Assembly: GCA_903930505.1 (NCBI GenBank)
Contig: CAIYYQ010000071.1
Coordinates: 1-10,866 of the forward strand
Direction of reading: 5' to 3'
Origin: Methanobacteriota archaeon
GTDB lineage: Archaea; Thermoplasmatota; E2; DHVEG-1
DNA length: 10,866 nucleotides
Of the stretch, positions 5,564-10,866 are shown in pieces. Within the stretch, counting starts at the first letter, position 1. Every line of letters starts with the position of its first letter. Made by a program: the position numbers and the translations under genes. The notes below the pieces were generated by a model. It saw only the letters and a list, made by a program, of their open reading frames with translations, made no database searches and was not told the DNA's origin.

Positions 5564-5777
5564 TCATCCAGGAAGGAGACTTGCCTCAGAAACACTCTCT
5601 AAATATACTTGAATCATTGATTCGGTGATCTTGTATTTTTTATCTAAATATTCATTGATTTGCTCCTACCGACAATTCTATCGCTGTGAGTATCTTGAAA
5701 ACAAGTTTAATACAATCATGTTCTTGTGTATATTTTTGTAGCGTTCCAACCATCTCATGGTAATCTTTGAGTATCAT
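5564..5777 (-). pseudogene. Small gene of unknown function, split by a probable one-base frameshift
   Basis: The ATG at 5777 has a GGAGG (5790-5786) 8 nt upstream and opens a 41-residue frame (MILKDYHEMVGTLQKYTQEH...) that stops at 5652 with GANQ. From about 5665 the frame shifted by one base stays open for 33 more residues (EQINEYLDKKYKITESMIQV...) and stops at 5564. The extra piece has a protein-like, amphipathic, charged composition. Skipping one G around 5666-5668 would join the two halves into one protein of about 71 residues. This could be a real mutation, an assembly indel, or, less likely, a programmed shift. No family is recognised. It lies directly after the folded leader RNA at 5794-5929 and could be regulated by it. 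Confidence 0.6.
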
Positions 5778-5793
5778 TTTTTTTACCTCCATT

Positions 5794-5929
5794 AAAAAAA
5801 TATTACAGGAAATTGCTAATGATTCTGGGAACTCTCGAGGGAGCTCATAGTGAACCTCGAGAGTTTCAGTCAACAAGTCTCAATGTTATTCCCCGCAAGC
5901 GAACCGCTTGCATGATTCCAATTTCCTGT
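5794..5929 (-). ncRNA. Structured leader RNA or attenuator ahead of the small gene at 5777
   Basis: Perfect complementarity encloses the element: ACAGGAAATTG (5805-5815) pairs with CAATTTCCTGT (5919-5929), 11 bp. Inside are hairpin A (5895-5911; on the minus strand GCAAGCG-GTT-CGCTTGC, 7 bp with a GUU triloop) and hairpin B (5828-5867; 11 perfect pairs AACTCTCGAGG/CCTCGAGAGTT, extended to 13 with a G-U). On the minus strand the closing stem is followed by AATA and T7 (5800-5794), and three bases later by the GGAGG of the next gene. This arrangement is what a transcriptional attenuator or riboswitch would look like. A TATA-like GATAAAAAGG lies at about 5971-5962, predicting a start near 5945. 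No known riboswitch class is recognised. A stand-alone small RNA is the alternative. Confidence 0.6.
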
Positions 5930-6013
5930 TTTTTGATTTCTGTAATTATGATATCGTATGGCCTTTTTATCTGTTTTGTTCAATTATTCTGATCAGACAG
6001 TTGACGGAACCGG

Positions 6014-6036
6014 AAAAGAGAGATGATTTGCTCTCT
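6014..6036 (-). terminator. Hairpin terminator of the 54-residue gene
   Basis: On the minus strand AGAGAG (6036-6031), an 8-nt loop and CTCTCT (6022-6017) form a 6-bp stem followed by TTT, starting 23 nt after the stop at 6059. The T tract is short, so confidence is moderate. Confidence 0.45.
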
Positions 6037-6058
6037 ACTTTTTCGCAAGATACGGAAA

Positions 6059-6223
6059 TCAGGTTCTCCTGTTGATCAAGACTTTCTTATCTTCCGGCAA
6101 ATCACGGGGAGTACCATACTTTGGAACTCTTTGCGAGAAGAAATAATCCGTCATCGATTCTCCGTTCTTTAATTTCACGACTCGTTCATACAGTGTCCAA
6201 CCATCATTTGTTTCGTATGCCAT
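6059..6223 (-). CDS. 54-residue YETxDGW small protein, paralogue 2
   Basis: A complete small gene. The ATG at 6223 is preceded by GGAGG with 9-nt spacing, and the stop is TGA at 6061-6059. The protein begins MAYETNDGWTLYERVVKLK, has a YFF core and ends DKKVLINRRT. It aligns along its length with the 62-residue neighbour at 6324-6512: shared YET, DGW, LY, R-V, LK, YFF, PK, DxP and NRRT. The shared aromatic and charged pattern without cysteine or membrane segments suggests a compact beta-rich domain. That is inference and the function is unknown. It lacks the roughly eight-residue tail (IPYLKRE) of its paralogue. It lies 100 nt downstream of that paralogue but is separated from it by a strong terminator, so the two are probably expressed separately. 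Confidence 0.85.
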   Translation of the reverse strand: MAYETNDGWTLYERVVKLKNGESMTDYFFSQRVPKYGTPRDLPEDKKVLINRRT

Positions 6224-6289
6224 ATTTTTTTACCTCCTCGATATCATTGTTTCAGATTCAATAACACAAATGCTGTTTTGTTATTCGAT

Positions 6290-6324
6290 GAAATAAAAAA
6301 AAGAAGGAGCGATGCTAGCTCCTT
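6290..6324 (-). terminator. Intrinsic-style terminator of the 62-residue gene
   Basis: On the minus strand AAGGAGC (6324-6318), loop TAGCATC and GCTCCTT (6310-6304) form a perfect 7-bp stem followed by C and T8. The stop codon TAA (6326-6324) overlaps the first base of the stem. This is a textbook hairpin plus U-tract. Confidence 0.75.
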
Positions 6325-6512
6325 TATTCCCGTTTAAGGTATGGGATACTTGTTCTTCTGTTAACACCAACAGTGTATCCTTCAGGCATATCGCATGGGT
6401 TTCCTGATTTTGGTGTTGCTCTCGTAAAGAAATAGATTTGTTGATTTCGGCCCCCTTTTAGGTGCACGATCCGTGTATATAGTATCCATCCATCTTTCGT
6501 TTCGTATACCAT
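6324..6512 (-). CDS. 62-residue YETxDGW small protein, paralogue 1
   Basis: The ATG at 6512 follows GGAGG with 8-nt spacing. The protein starts MVYETKDGWILYTRIVHLK, continues with GGRNQQIYFFTR, PKSGNPCDMPEGYTVGVNRR and ends in IPYLKRE. It is 62 residues, soluble, with one cysteine. It is clearly homologous to the 54-residue protein at 6059-6223 (about half the aligned positions identical), so this is a local duplication. I have the impression that similar short proteins with this motif occur in other archaea, but I cannot name a family or function. Its own SD and terminator mark it as an independent transcription unit. The basic residues near the end could contact nucleic acid, which is speculation. 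Confidence 0.85.
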   Translation of the reverse strand: MVYETKDGWILYTRIVHLKGGRNQQIYFFTRATPKSGNPCDMPEGYTVGVNRRTSIPYLKRE

Positions 6513-6682
6513 AATGATAACCTCCTTTTTTTATAGTTTTTTTTAACAAAAATCATCTACTGTTTCACAAAATTTTTGTGTTTAATCATGTTCGATTCTG
6601 ATCTATAAATTTCTTTGTTTTTTTGCGTTCACCTCCTGAGAATATAAGTTGTTTTTGTGTTCGTTCCATAAAATAAATCGCA

Positions 6683-6697
6683 AACGAAAAATTTATT
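6683..6697 (+). promoter_or_regulatory. BRE/TATA promoter of the candidate small RNA
   Basis: A CGAAAAA BRE-like element followed by TTTATTAA lies about 25 nt before position 6715, where the folded, GC-richer RNA begins. This fits archaeal promoter spacing. The region 6513-6716 is otherwise very AT-rich and I see no convincing gene in it. Confidence 0.5.
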
Positions 6698-6716
6698 AAA
6701 CAAAATAATATATCAT

Positions 6717-6855
6717 TCATGCAAGCGAAATCATCTTGGGAATGGAAGTCAAGCATATCCTGGTGGTTCGCCAGGGCTGAAACAGATCATTACCGAAGTT
6801 ACGCCCAAACTCAATACGTGGTTTGGGCATCGCATTCCCTCGCATCATTTTTTTT
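6717..6855 (+). ncRNA. Candidate structured small RNA ending in a T8 terminator
   Basis: A block of about 120 nt at roughly 50 percent GC stands out from very AT-rich flanks. GGGAATG (6738-6744) pairs with CATTCCC (6833-6839), extended by GCGA (6725-6728) with TCGC (6840-6843). Hairpin A is CCTGGTG-GTT-CGCCAGG (6759-6775; 7 bp including one G-U, GUU triloop). Hairpin B is GCCCAAAC/GTTTGGGC (6803-6810 with 6821-6828; 8 perfect pairs, 10-nt loop). The closing strand is followed by CGCATCA and T8 (6848-6855), a typical archaeal termination tract. A promoter is visible upstream. No reading frame here looks like protein. It does not match tRNA, 5S, SRP RNA, RNase P RNA or a C/D-box RNA as I know them. 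It may act alone or as a leader of the membrane-protein gene at 6925, which has its own TATA-like box. Confidence 0.65.
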
Positions 6856-7350: not shown

Positions 7351-8028
7351 ATGGCACAAAAAATCCCTGATGAAACCATCGAGAAGCTCAGAGAGCGTAT
7401 GAAAAACGGAGCGGATGCATCCCAGGTAGCCCAGGAATTCGGAATCACAACGACCACAGTCTATTTGAATACGAAGGATCTTCCTCGGAAACATTCACGC
7501 ATACCCTTAGAACAAAAAGAACAGATGAGAGAATTAGTGCGACAGGGTTATTCAAAGAGGGACGTTGCAAGACGATTCAATCGTAATTTCCGAACAATCC
7601 AAGCGATAACTAAAGGCATGCCTGGATATGAGGGTTATAGGAATGCAGTAGGACCTGAAGAAAAGCGTATTTTGGGACGACTATTGCAGGACGGATTTGT
7701 TATTTCGGATTTCTCCCTGTATGCTGCTCGGAATCTCAAGATGCAATTCCCGATTATTCGGAGTGTACGTATTTCGCGTAAAACGGTTTTTTATTTACAT
7801 GGTAAAGAAAAAGAAATGATCAAGGGCTATTTAGCCAGCTTGTCAACGCGAATTGTTAACTATGCTACTCTTGAAGAACTATGCGAACAACTAGGCATAC
7901 AATTGTCGCTCCCTGAACAAAAAACGCTCATACAACAAAGCAAATTGATAAGCACATTAAATCAGGTTCATTCGACTATTCAGAAAAAGCTCGCTGATTT
8001 TGGATGGGAATTAATATTAACTTTTTAG
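7351..8028 (+). CDS. Double helix-turn-helix protein of unknown function, paralogue A
   Basis: A 225-residue protein from the ATG at 7351. Two tandem helix-turn-helix repeats are visible: about residues 5-45 (IEKLRERMKNGADASQVAQE followed by FGITTTTVYLNTKDLP) and about 50-92 (MRELVRQGYSKRDVARRFN followed by RNFRTIQAITKGMP). Both have the resolvase or homeodomain-like pattern in which the second repeat begins QGYSKRDVA. The C-terminal domain (about 98-225) is shared with the protein at 8087 and I do not recognise it. The conserved piece reads GFVI... FPIIR... KTVFYLHGKEKEMI... RIVNYATLEEL. Likely a sequence-specific DNA-binding protein. An upstream TTG (7336) is in frame, but ATG 7351 lies about 26 nt after an A/T-rich TATA-like stretch (near 7325-7332) and has no SD, suggesting leaderless expression. 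Next to its paralogue in tandem, 58 nt apart. Confidence 0.8.
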   Translation: MAQKIPDETIEKLRERMKNGADASQVAQEFGITTTTVYLNTKDLPRKHSRIPLEQKEQMRELVRQGYSKRDVARRFNRNFRTIQAITKGMPGYEGYRNAVGPEEKRILGRLLQDGFVISDFSLYAARNLKMQFPIIRSVRISRKTVFYLHGKEKEMIKGYLASLSTRIVNYATLEELCEQLGIQLSLPEQKTLIQQSKLISTLNQVHSTIQKKLADFGWELILTF

Positions 8029-8086: not shown

Positions 8087-8666
8087 ATGCCTCGAAGACA
8101 TTCCAAGAACATCATTAATCAAATACGGAGGAAAGTCCTGAGTGGCAAATCAAAATACCAGGTAGCCAAAGAGATGAATTTACCGGACCAAACCGTTTAT
8201 AACCATACCAAGGACATACCCAGCAAGAGCCCCGGGAGAACCGAGATACGAGGAAAAACATTAGATCTGTTGAAACAACTGGTACGAGATGGATATGTCG
8301 TTGCAACTAGGCATACCAGTACTCAATTTCGCACCCTACGAAAGCATTTTCCTATGATTCAACGCTCAGAGATGGATCACAATGTCATCTACTACTTTGA
8401 CGATAAGAACAAGATAGCATTGAAGGCGATGCTTCAACAGAGAAAATCCAGGTTAATAAATTACACAGATCTTTCTAACATGGCTCATATTTTTAATGTT
8501 CCCCTGTCAAACCAGGAGAGAAAATTGTTCATTGGTGAAAAACAAAAGAAACATTTACGAAAAAATCATACATCTGATCAGGAATCTACAGGAGGAAATG
8601 ATTCCTTCATTGGTAGATTTTCACTCGCGGAAGGACTGCGATTTTATAAGAGCATTATTAAAATAG
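8087..8666 (+). pseudogene. Helix-turn-helix protein, paralogue B, with a probable +1 frameshift
   Basis: The ATG at 8087 opens a frame homologous to the protein at 7351 but with one HTH repeat (about residues 8-45: INQIRRKVLSGKSKYQVAKE, MNLPDQTVYNHTKDIP) instead of two. The shared C-terminal domain starts near residue 55 (LVRDGYVV, FPMIQR, NVIYYFDDKNK, RLINYTDLSNM). As it stands the frame runs to a TAA at 8776 with an unusual aromatic tail (FYCLFKQNFFFYEFYPIFC) that overlaps the opposite gene by 66 nt. From 8532, the frame one base ahead is open for 44 residues (LVKNKRNIYEKIIHLIRNLQ..., ending FIRALLK) and stops at 8666, just before a hairpin terminator. This looks like the true C-terminus, so a base was gained or lost near 8525-8534. 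The restored protein has about 193 residues. Confidence 0.75.
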
Positions 8667-8687
8667 TATGCAGGGGAATAAATAGAA

Positions 8688-8712
8688 ATTATTCAAAAAG
8701 AATGATTTTTTT
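8688..8712 (+). terminator. Hairpin and T7 terminator between converging genes
   Basis: ATTATTC (8688-8694) pairs with GAATGAT (8700-8706), 7 bp with one G-U and an AAAAA loop, followed by a T run ending at 8712. It starts 22 nt after the restored stop of the HTH gene at 8666 and meets the stop of the opposite gene at 8711-8713. It lies inside the unshifted frame, which supports the earlier stop. Confidence 0.6.
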
Positions 8713-9604
8713 ATGGTTTTACTGCCTCTTCAAACAGAATTTTTTCTTTTATGAGTTTTATCCCATTTTCTGCTAATTTTATTTCATTATCAGATATGTG
8801 TTGTAAATATTCATATCGTAAGAGTTGTTGAATCATATGATTGAATTCGACATCGGTAAGTTCTAGTAAAAATTTCGCGGATTCTTCATCGATATCTCGT
8901 TCGTAGAGCATCCGTAAAAATTGATATTCCTTTTCCGTGACCACATGGCTGTCTGATTTTTTTACCAATCTGCCAAAATCGGTTAATGTTCTTACATAAT
9001 ATTCGATAATTTGATTCAGATGGAGTTTATCGAGGAGTTTGCCGGTTTTGTCGTAGATAAAGCAGACGTTGTTTCGATATTTGAAAGAGGCGACTTGGTT
9101 CCAGGTGTATTCTAAGATATTGGTTCGGATCTCTTTCATTTCTGATCCGTCATCATGTTGAACGAGTGCTTTTCGTTTTTCTAATTGTTCGTGGAGATGT
9201 AGTTGTTCTAATCGTAAGAGTTCAAGATCCACGCCATATCGCTTCAATTCTATAACGTCGGAGTCACCAATAAGGGATTTAAATTCTTTAAGGAAGTAAA
9301 GACCGGTTTCTTCTTCAAGATCCATACATAATATTCGTATAACTGATTCAATTGCGTCCCCTATTTTTTCTACTTTAACTGAATTGATCGCAGAGGATAT
9401 AAAAATCGCATCCTCGCGTGCTCCTTCGTAATAGGTTATATTTTTAATTTCCACATTTTTTAAAAAATCATATTTTTTTGTTAAAGTTATAATAATTGCA
9501 TCGATAAATGCACAGGCAAGGGTTTCTGATGATCTTCGGCCCGCTATGTTAATAAGTGTTAAAAGTACTCGCCGCAGGATATCAGCATTTTTCTTTTTTG
9601 CCAT
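8711..9604 (-). CDS. 297-residue unknown protein with C-terminal winged helix, divergent from the archaellum gene
   Basis: A soluble protein in three parts. Residues about 5-115 form an alpha/beta region (LRRVLLTLINIAGRRSSETL, IESVIRILCMDLEEETGLYF) that I cannot assign. Residues 118-146 are a leucine-rich helix (LELLRLEQLHLHEQLEKRKA), likely a dimerising coiled coil. Residues about 221-285 look like a winged helix: helix EKEYQFLRMLYER, helix EESAKFLLEL, recognition-type helix DVEFNHMIQQLLRYEYL, then a short wing around QHISDNEIKLAENG. DNA binding is therefore plausible, and the position back to back with the FlaC-type gene makes it a candidate regulator or adaptor of motility. I do not recognise it as CheF or another named factor. 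The ATG at 9604 lacks an SD. A palindromic GTAATATATTAC (9654-9643) lies upstream. Confidence 0.8.
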   Translation of the reverse strand: MAKKKNADILRRVLLTLINIAGRRSSETLACAFIDAIIITLTKKYDFLKNVEIKNITYYEGAREDAIFISSAINSVKVEKIGDAIESVIRILCMDLEEETGLYFLKEFKSLIGDSDVIELKRYGVDLELLRLEQLHLHEQLEKRKALVQHDDGSEMKEIRTNILEYTWNQVASFKYRNNVCFIYDKTGKLLDKLHLNQIIEYYVRTLTDFGRLVKKSDSHVVTEKEYQFLRMLYERDIDEESAKFLLELTDVEFNHMIQQLLRYEYLQHISDNEIKLAENGIKLIKEKILFEEAVKP

Positions 9605-9831
9605 TCATTTCACAATTCCTTGATGATAGGTCTATTTCTCAAGTAATATATTACGTTTATACTCTGTTAATCATAATATATAAATATATCCAGACAAAAT
9701 ACCAAAACGGAAAAACGCACTAGATATCCTCATTCAACCTTTATGAAAACAACGATTTTAACATCAAAAAAGAACACTTTAAAAAACACATAAATCAGAG
9801 GTAAAAGTATAAATACAAGATTATAGTTGTT
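9605..9831. promoter_or_regulatory. Divergent promoter region between the winged-helix gene and the archaellum gene
   Basis: A very AT-rich spacer without a gene. On the minus strand a perfect 12-bp palindrome GTAATATATTAC (9643-9654) and TATA-like AGTATAAAC lie 40-60 nt before the ATG at 9604. On the plus strand TATAAATA (9808-9815), flanked by AAAAG, predicts transcription starting near 9832-9838. A second TATA-like ATATAAATATAT lies near 9679-9690. The palindrome could be an operator or simply a symmetric TATA box. Confidence 0.5.
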
Positions 9832-9879
9832 ATGCACGGGATTTCACCAAAAAGGGTGGTAACGGAGGGGTATAAATAA
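9832..9879 (+). other. Possible 15-residue upstream ORF of the archaellum gene
   Basis: The ATG at 9832 lies 24 nt after the start of TATAAATA, exactly where a leaderless message could begin, and encodes MHGISPKRVVTEGYK. Its TAA (9877-9879) overlaps the ATA codon proposed as the FlaC start. The GGAGGGG lies within its end, so its translation would be coupled to the main gene. It could equally be chance, or the true N-terminus of the main gene displaced by an indel. Confidence 0.25.
9864..9870 (+). promoter_or_regulatory. Shine-Dalgarno of the FlaC-type gene that decides the start
   Basis: GGAGGGG is 5-7 nt before ATA 9876, a spacing like that of the well-defined SD sites in this window (6, 8, 8 and 9 nt). 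No ATG, GTG or TTG follows in the right frame until 10002. An alternative reading is BRE plus TATAAATA (9871-9878) for a leaderless start near 9898. Confidence 0.45.
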
Positions 9880-10832
9880 AGTTAAAACTGGGAAAAGATG
9901 AGTCGGCAAAGACTCCTGATGATTCTACTTCTTCTACTCCCGCTACTCCTGAAGTAGCCGTTCAACCGTTAAAAAAAGAACCGGAGCCGGTTAAGCAAAA
10001 AGTGGAAGATATCCGAAAAGTAATTAAATTCGATTCAGCTGAAAATAAAAAAGAAGAAAAACCGCAGGAAGCACCAAGTAAAAAACCTGAATCAGGGACA
10101 AAAAAACCTTCCGAAGTAAAACTTGATAATCTCACAGATGCAGTCGGTGCTGCAACAGCCACTACCTCATCTCGAGAAGATCTTGAGATGAAGCGTACGA
10201 TCCTTCAAAACATGAAGGATTTTGATTTTCAAATAAAGAAAAACCAGGAAGACGTTACCAAAGTAACAGAAAAACTTGACAGCCTCTCAAAGGATCTGGA
10301 TGATCTTGTAAGTCTCTATGAAATTGTCTCCGAACAAATGAATCCTTTTGTCGGTTTGTCAAAGGTTACAAAAAAACGAATTGAAGCATTGGAAACCTTC
10401 ACAAAGGAAATTGATGAATTAAAAACCAGAATAGGCGAATTAGAAGGTAACCCCCAAGATACTGTTAAAAAAACAAATGATCAGAAATCATCAGAAAAAA
10501 TAGATGAACCTAAACCTTCTGATGAAACAACTACGACCAGCAAGGAAAATCAGTTGCCGACTAAAACCGGTGCTGAGGCATTAGCAAAAGAGCTTCTCGC
10601 AAAGAAATCAACAGAGCTGCAAGCAAAAACAGAAGTTCCTGTGGAGAAACCGGTTGCAAAAACTGAAGAATCTAAACCACCAGAACAAACGCAGATGATT
10701 AGCGGTTTCAACGAAAATGGGTTATCTGCAGACGTTTTAGACGAAATCCTTAATACGGCGTTAACAAATCTCCTTTATGAGCAGAAGATGGATTCTCTGA
10801 TTGATGAATTCATCATGAGTTTGAATAGATGA
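9876..10832 (+). CDS. flaC: Archaellum accessory protein of the FlaC/ArlC (FlaC/D/E) type
   Basis: A cytoplasmic archaellum component; FlaC/D/E proteins form part of the collar under the motor and link it to chemotaxis signalling. The diagnostic piece is a predicted coiled coil (about residues 112-190 in 318 numbering) carrying LYEIVSEQMNPFVGLSK, the family's YE-x-NPF signature, at about 147-163. The N-terminal 100 residues and the segment about 195-270 are acidic, Lys/Glu/Pro/Thr-rich and probably disordered. A conserved-looking C-terminal helix (VLDEILNTALTNLLYEQKMD) ends the protein. The first ATG/GTG/TTG start in frame is GTG 10002 (276 residues). However, the frame is open and similar in composition back to 9876, and GGAGG lies 7 nt before an ATA there (KLKLGKDESAKTPDD), so the true protein is probably 318 residues with an AUA start or a substitution. 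It is probably the first gene of an archaellum operon continuing to the right. No archaellin gene is visible. Confidence 0.85.
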   Translation: MKLKLGKDESAKTPDDSTSSTPATPEVAVQPLKKEPEPVKQKVEDIRKVIKFDSAENKKEEKPQEAPSKKPESGTKKPSEVKLDNLTDAVGAATATTSSREDLEMKRTILQNMKDFDFQIKKNQEDVTKVTEKLDSLSKDLDDLVSLYEIVSEQMNPFVGLSKVTKKRIEALETFTKEIDELKTRIGELEGNPQDTVKKTNDQKSSEKIDEPKPSDETTTTSKENQLPTKTGAEALAKELLAKKSTELQAKTEVPVEKPVAKTEESKPPEQTQMISGFNENGLSADVLDEILNTALTNLLYEQKMDSLIDEFIMSLNR

Positions 10833-10866
10833 AGAATCTGTTATAAACATATGTCAAGGTAGATGA

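Follow-up and report, generated by a model that had tools for sequence, protein, structure and literature searches.

The window, by which we mean the whole stretch of 10,866 nucleotides that was analysed, carries two putative small RNAs on opposite strands, here termed A and B. We consider it rather likely that both belong to a single small family of structured, stand-alone non-coding RNAs, about 120-190 nt long, in an uncultured archaeal lineage that is probably Thermoplasmatota. A third copy, termed B′, lies in a related genome from Lac Pavin sediment, and covariance models built without B′ or without A score the omitted member well above the next match.

Architecture of elements A and B

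The original prediction gave A and B one shared architecture, and refolding recovered it: closing stem, GUU-triloop hairpin, linker, second hairpin and U-tract are found in both (Table 1), and the minimum-energy folds of the full elements, each with its closing stem and both hairpins, are alike rather than unrelated. The layout and the GUU triloop stand as described, while two dimensions had to be revised, since the hairpin of "exactly 7 bp" folds with 8 bp in A and in B′, and the linkers, put at 25-28 nt, reach 29 nt in A, where the fold also places a weak extra hairpin. The fold energy of A is far better than that of shuffled sequences (z -4.5 with flanks, -4.7 trimmed; 200 shuffles), and a piece cut inside the 3′ closing strand loses the closing stem and gives z -2.2. 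The gain is small for B (z -1.4 with flanks, equalled by 20 of 200 shuffles, and -2.6 trimmed), and B′ on its own folds into a closing stem, a GUU hairpin and additional hairpins at z -4.9.

By inspection, the TATA/BRE-like AAAAATATTTATATT upstream of B′ resembles AAAAATTTATTAAAC of B, the TATA-like boxes start 51 (B) and 42 (B′) bases before the closing stems, the presumed promoter of A is weak, and oligo-U follows all three elements. An 11-letter word of A's hairpin, TCATGCAAGCG (5905-5915, minus strand), recurs just upstream of B (6717-6727, plus strand), and the other arm of this hairpin could therefore pair with the leader of B; no word of this type is common to B′ and A.

Table 1. Positions of the putative RNA elements, their parts and associated features (L051, stretch of the related genome that holds B′)
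Feature	Position	Strand	Basis
Element A, whole putative small RNA	5794-5929	-	Fold; matched by model of B and B′
A closing stem, 5′ strand CAGGAAAUUG	5928-5919	-	Fold, pair list
A closing stem, 3′ strand CAAUUUCCUG	5815-5806	-	Fold, pair list
A GUU-triloop hairpin GCAAGCG-GUU-CGCUUGC	5911-5895	-	Fold, pair comparison
A linker, 29 nt, starts GGGGAAUAACA	5894-5866	-	Alignment; GAAUAACA common to A and B′
A second hairpin	5865-5830	-	Fold
A U7 tract, presumed archaeal terminator	5800-5794	-	Sequence
Block with A and presumed promoter, about 220 bp, missing at syntenic locus of G001	5800-6019	.	Alignment
Gene for 62-aa protein, divergent from B; syntenic anchor that adjoins B′ as well in G001	6324-6512	-	Alignment
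BRE/TATA-like AAAAATTTATTAAAC upstream of B	6687-6701	+	Inspection
Element B, whole putative small RNA	6738-6855	+	Fold; syntenic homologue B′
B closing stem, 5′ strand GGGAAUG	6738-6744	+	Fold, pair comparison
B GUU-triloop hairpin CCUGGUG-GUU-CGCCAGG	6759-6775	+	Fold, pair comparison
B linker, 27 nt	6776-6802	+	Fold
B second hairpin, like CCAAAAC/GUUUUGG of B′	6803-6828	+	Fold, pair comparison
B closing stem, 3′ strand CAUUCCC	6833-6839	+	Fold, pair comparison
B U8 tract, presumed terminator	6848-6855	+	Sequence
B′, third copy, adjoins same 62-aa gene as B	L051:7988-8174		Synteny and eye

A third copy in a Lac Pavin relative

The nearest genome to the window found in a scan of the GTDB collection is a Euryarchaeota MAG from Lac Pavin sediment (hereafter G001). 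It encodes a relative of the window's 297-aa protein (locus L001) with 97% protein identity, and its DNA is 92% and 90% identical over most of window positions 8635-10866; the window itself is archaeal, as a FlaC-like protein encoded at its right end and a relative of the 297-aa protein named as Candidatus Thermoplasmatota indicate. B′ lies in L051, the stretch of G001 contig C5 around the best relative of the window's 62-aa protein, where this relative is adjoined by a paralogue in the same order as in the window. Positions 5657-5799 of the window align with L051 7125-7267 (80%) and positions 6020-6677 with L051 7274-7924 (83%; a 662-column flank), and in this alignment the block that holds A has no counterpart at the syntenic locus; two genomes are too few to distinguish gain from loss.

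Past the end of the alignment, B′ shows the layout GAGAGAAUG GAA ... CUCUAGUG GUU CGCUGGAG ACGAAUAACA ... CAUUCUCUC ... UUUUU. Between B and B′, 63 of 105 aligned columns are identical, and the place beside the 62-aa gene is kept. Judged by the three-member model described below, G001 carries B′ as its single copy. Nucleotide BLAST of A and B against G001 returned only short matches, mostly at T-rich ends, and B missed B′; a search with B against 60 relatives likewise gave only short matches, most of them at T-rich ends.

Covariance models and paired changes

Three covariance models were built, R1 from the 5′ half of A, B and B′, R2 from A and B, and R3 from B and B′, the latter two serving as leave-one-out runs for B′ (which had first been seen by eye) and for A, respectively. 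B′ is scored by R2 at 32.2 bits (E 7e-5 in 173 kb; next match 15.0 bits) and A by R3 at 31.2 bits (E 2.2e-4 in 174 kb; next match 14.1 bits), these E-values being rough by the tool's own statement. The original prediction had proposed one RNA family with compensatory change and suggested a structural-model search of relatives; that search gave a further copy, B′, the leave-one-out models join all three elements, and stem changes on both sides keep the pairing.

All 21 pair cells of the GUU hairpin are standard across A, B and B′, with three of the seven pairs changed on both sides, and in slid-partner controls pairing falls to 33-48%. When closing stem and hairpin are taken together for B and B′, 28 of 28 cells are paired and three pairs have both sides changed; in the closing stem itself 7 of 7 pairs are kept, one of them altered on both sides. 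With the closing stem of A set by hand from the inside, its seven inner pairs form alongside those of B and B′; positions 3 and 5 carry paired changes relative to both, as does position 6 relative to B, and B has two non-standard pairs (positions 8 and 9) where A and B′ still pair. A hand-set comparison of the second hairpins (CCCAAAC/GUUUGGG in B, CCAAAAC/GUUUUGG in B′) gives one paired change at a place where the MAFFT alignment is off by one column. With so small a set the shuffle controls are weak: for the two sequences B and B′, 71 of 500 shuffles do as well, and for all three members 14-19 of 500 do so on each of four measures (14 for the covariation score) and 34 when pair types are counted.

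The part in common lies in the 5′ half and consists of UGGAA in B and B′, less certain in its register in A, a hairpin of 7-8 bp with the form G-Y-G GUU CGC, and a linker with GAAUAACA in A and B′ that is looser in B. R3 aligns A without gaps, which leaves the register of UGGAA uncertain but not that of the hairpin and GAAUAACA. Since B′ keeps the shape with its letters changed, A and B probably belong to one family, and the three elements together are probably one apparently undescribed small RNA family of narrow spread as far as searched.

Distribution of the probable family

A descriptor based on A and B, and written after B′ had already been seen, asks for a 7-bp hairpin of the form G-GUU-C, a closing stem of 7 bp, a second hairpin and T5. 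It matches twice in the window and once in L051, where the match is B′, and had no match in 1,259 kb of other DNA, mostly viral contigs chosen for GGTTCGC...GAATAACA. The bare plan (any triloop on 7 bp, closing stem and T5, with the second hairpin not required) occurs 166 times in 2,312 kb on both strands. The signal is carried by the GUU hairpin and its neighbouring letters, and the bare architecture is not rare.

R1 gave a convincing copy in one of 60 relatives, one of 52 genomes in the order and one of 80 in the class, each time in G001; the three genome sets overlap and were scored with stricter filters. Over the 80 class genomes nothing except B′ exceeded 24.4 bits. At E <= 2 the model reported 12 places in 11 of the 60 genomes, G001 among them, and among its lesser matches are one of 17.8 bits in L066 and another, the second for L057, of 18.7 bits. 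One match in genome G023, at 24.4 bits, keeps GAAUAACA and a GUU hairpin with standard pairs, and was dropped as chance because it straddles the end of a 514-aa ORF, which we take to be secY; the other matches among the ten aligned either lack the GUU loop or have pairs broken or skipped. A GGTTC pattern occurs in G001 barely more often (66 and 69 times) than the reversed pattern used as control (62 and 52 times), and a stricter pattern matched in three of 60 genomes, G001 alone being convincing by eye. Two pattern scans of viral contigs (80 of 119 and 80 of at least 120 stretches) gave nothing above 19.0 bits, and plasmid and phage records gave no match. In each of two IMG/VR contigs (L080 and L093), the word pair GGTTCGC...GAATAACA is present in two places at a distance of 276 bases, and the RNA model has no match in them at E <= 10.

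The suggestion that the elements may be dispersed found no support in the DNA searched: there are two copies in the contig and one in G001, and none is convincing in the other 79 class genomes or in any of the 160 loci scored on viral contigs. Sampling of close kin is thin, as the 297-aa protein has a relative in one GTDB genome against 41 relatives in the protein collection (one of these 41 being named as Candidatus Thermoplasmatota), so that absence tells little about close kin. Relatives of the 62-aa protein on other contigs amount to 10 hits.

Relation to known RNA families

Neither A nor B matches any of the 4,227 families of Rfam 15, and B′ gives chance scores only (13.3 bits against a gathering score of 80), in line with the suggestion that the RNA could be undescribed. 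The parts of the published literature covered by our search held nothing resembling the motif of A and B. C/D box guide RNAs carry a C box (RUGAUGA) and a D box (CUGA), and H/ACA guide RNAs are built on a pocketed hairpin with a k-turn and a 3′ ANA box. Like these archaeal guides, A, B and B′ are small, structured and archaeal, and D-box-like CTGA words are present in all three, but the C box is absent from each of them, and their predicted multibranched fold with closing stem and U-tract differs from the k-turn fold of C/D RNAs and appears to differ from the pocketed hairpin plus ACA of H/ACA RNAs. A guide role, which had also been proposed, is unsupported because B′ has no notable match elsewhere in G001: an antisense search of that genome returned B′ itself and its own hairpin, the next match having E 0.40. 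Y RNA and YrlA are marked by a Ro-binding motif in the closing stem and by a Ro protein gene. The resemblance to them lies in ends paired in a closing stem, hairpins inside and an oligo-U 3′ end, but our elements are without an Rfam match. A comparative genomics survey of bacteria, archaea and metagenomes presents 104 structured RNA candidates (PMC2864571); A, B and B′ are like such orphan motifs in being small RNAs known by a conserved fold and paired changes and having no known partner, but have far fewer members.

Neighbouring genes

The 62-aa protein is related to a 54-aa protein of the window (6059-6223, minus strand), which stops earlier than its own 62-aa counterpart in G001. Of 60 related genomes, 58 hold relatives of this family, as many as ten in a single genome, and some of them lie within longer ORFs. 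Searches of Pfam, NCBIfam and PDB sequences gave no match for the protein, its AlphaFold model is confidently all-beta (five pLDDT values: 93.5, 92.7, 71.1, 70.3 and 58.4), and comparison with PDB folds gave no match (best E 0.89). With neither a PDB sequence match nor a fold match, nothing follows on its identity with a known RNA binder. The 90-aa neighbour of B has one weak match in 60 genomes, and viral scans for two neighbouring proteins gave none that was confirmed. The 41-aa ORF downstream of A (5652-5777, minus strand) has a G001 homologue of about 128 aa (L051:6859-7245, minus strand; 69% over 36 residues) that continues with a cysteine-rich part, the window copy being much shorter.

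Further along, window positions 7351-8028 and 8087-8776 (plus strand) encode adjoining related HTH proteins (28% over 152 residues), the first of them resolvase/ISL3-like. The profile of this first protein matches in 25 of 60 genomes at E <= 1e-10 and in none of the G001 sequences, which suggests a variable island. Near B′, the regions L051:5-6132 and 8481-9710 (both minus strand) encode a radical SAM protein like spore photoproduct lyase, a ResIII-type helicase, two tyrosine recombinases and an HTH protein, and the G001 neighbourhood of B′ is perhaps a mobile or defence island.

Stand-alone RNA, leader or DNA element?

The attC sites of integrons are defined by R-boxes, GTTRRRY or RYYYAAC. 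The absence of an Rfam match, a C box and attC R-boxes (the latter on either strand of A, B and B′) favours stand-alone small RNAs. The elements could instead be cis-acting leaders or terminators that control or insulate the downstream gene, as the U7 of A lies just before the ribosome site of the 41-aa ORF, B lies upstream of the 90-aa ORF, and oligo-U follows both. We regard this as unlikely, because the gene that follows B (90 aa) cannot be aligned with the one after B′ (66-71 aa) and the ORF downstream of A has a G001 homologue without A; ordinary terminator-like sites nearby, with a hairpin and a U-tract (such as 6324-6304, minus strand), look different as well. With their position kept and the genes downstream unrelated, B and B′ look like independent RNA genes.

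Elements acting at the DNA level, as folded single strands of palindromic mobile or recombination sites (MITE-, attC- or single-strand-origin-like), would account for the presence or absence of A as a block between related genomes, for the inverted closing stems and for the tyrosine recombinase gene that follows a small ORF downstream of B′, and fold energy does not favour the sense strand here, the antisense strands of A and B′ folding slightly better. Archaeal integrons with attC sites have been reported (PMC9668308), and our elements resemble attC sites in a fold kept with little sequence, in the small genes around and in the tyrosine recombinase near B′, but their closing stem encloses at least two separate hairpins and they are without R-boxes. 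The G-U pairs in the hairpins of B and B′ fit an RNA read from the plus strand; on the opposite strand they would become A-C mismatches. B has kept its position while its sequence changed, no target duplication is seen by eye at A, and we find a DNA-level role quite improbable. There is only a very slight chance that B and B′ are a real conserved RNA and A an unrelated look-alike which converged on the GUU hairpin. A and B′ have no word of at least nine letters in common, the alignment of their 3′ halves is unconvincing and the register of A's GGAA is ambiguous; nevertheless, the score that R3 gives to A stands far from the next match in the same DNA, and exceeds the best chance match of the related model R1 in the 80 genomes.

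Proposed role and significance

For the preferred stand-alone RNAs, each would be transcribed from its own TATA promoter and end at the oligo-U tract, with the closing stem protecting the RNA ends. The kept hairpin and A-rich linker may form a protein docking site, and the 3′ half, which differs among members in its length and in how many hairpins it has, may be a spacer or the part that touches a target, so that the RNA would work as a trans-acting RNA or small RNP and not as the leader of the next gene. Our best guess is a small RNA acting in trans, in which a protein would bind the conserved hairpin and the A-rich linker. A bolder version, which we offer tentatively and with rather low confidence, is a fast-evolving undescribed archaeal family that forms an RNP through the G-Y-G GUU CGC hairpin and the GAAUAACA-like linker and has an exchangeable 3′ half. 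Such RNA genes would come and go as whole units within a variable island that encodes small proteins, and the family could be a lineage-specific trans-acting regulator or a defence RNA.

We know of few structured RNAs described from uncultured relatives of Thermoplasma. Nucleotide BLAST passed over the presumed orthologue of B, and the leave-one-out tests give the family a concrete model with which to search. Should its transcripts and a protein bound to them come to light, it would be a new RNP for archaea, and otherwise still a defined orphan RNA motif.
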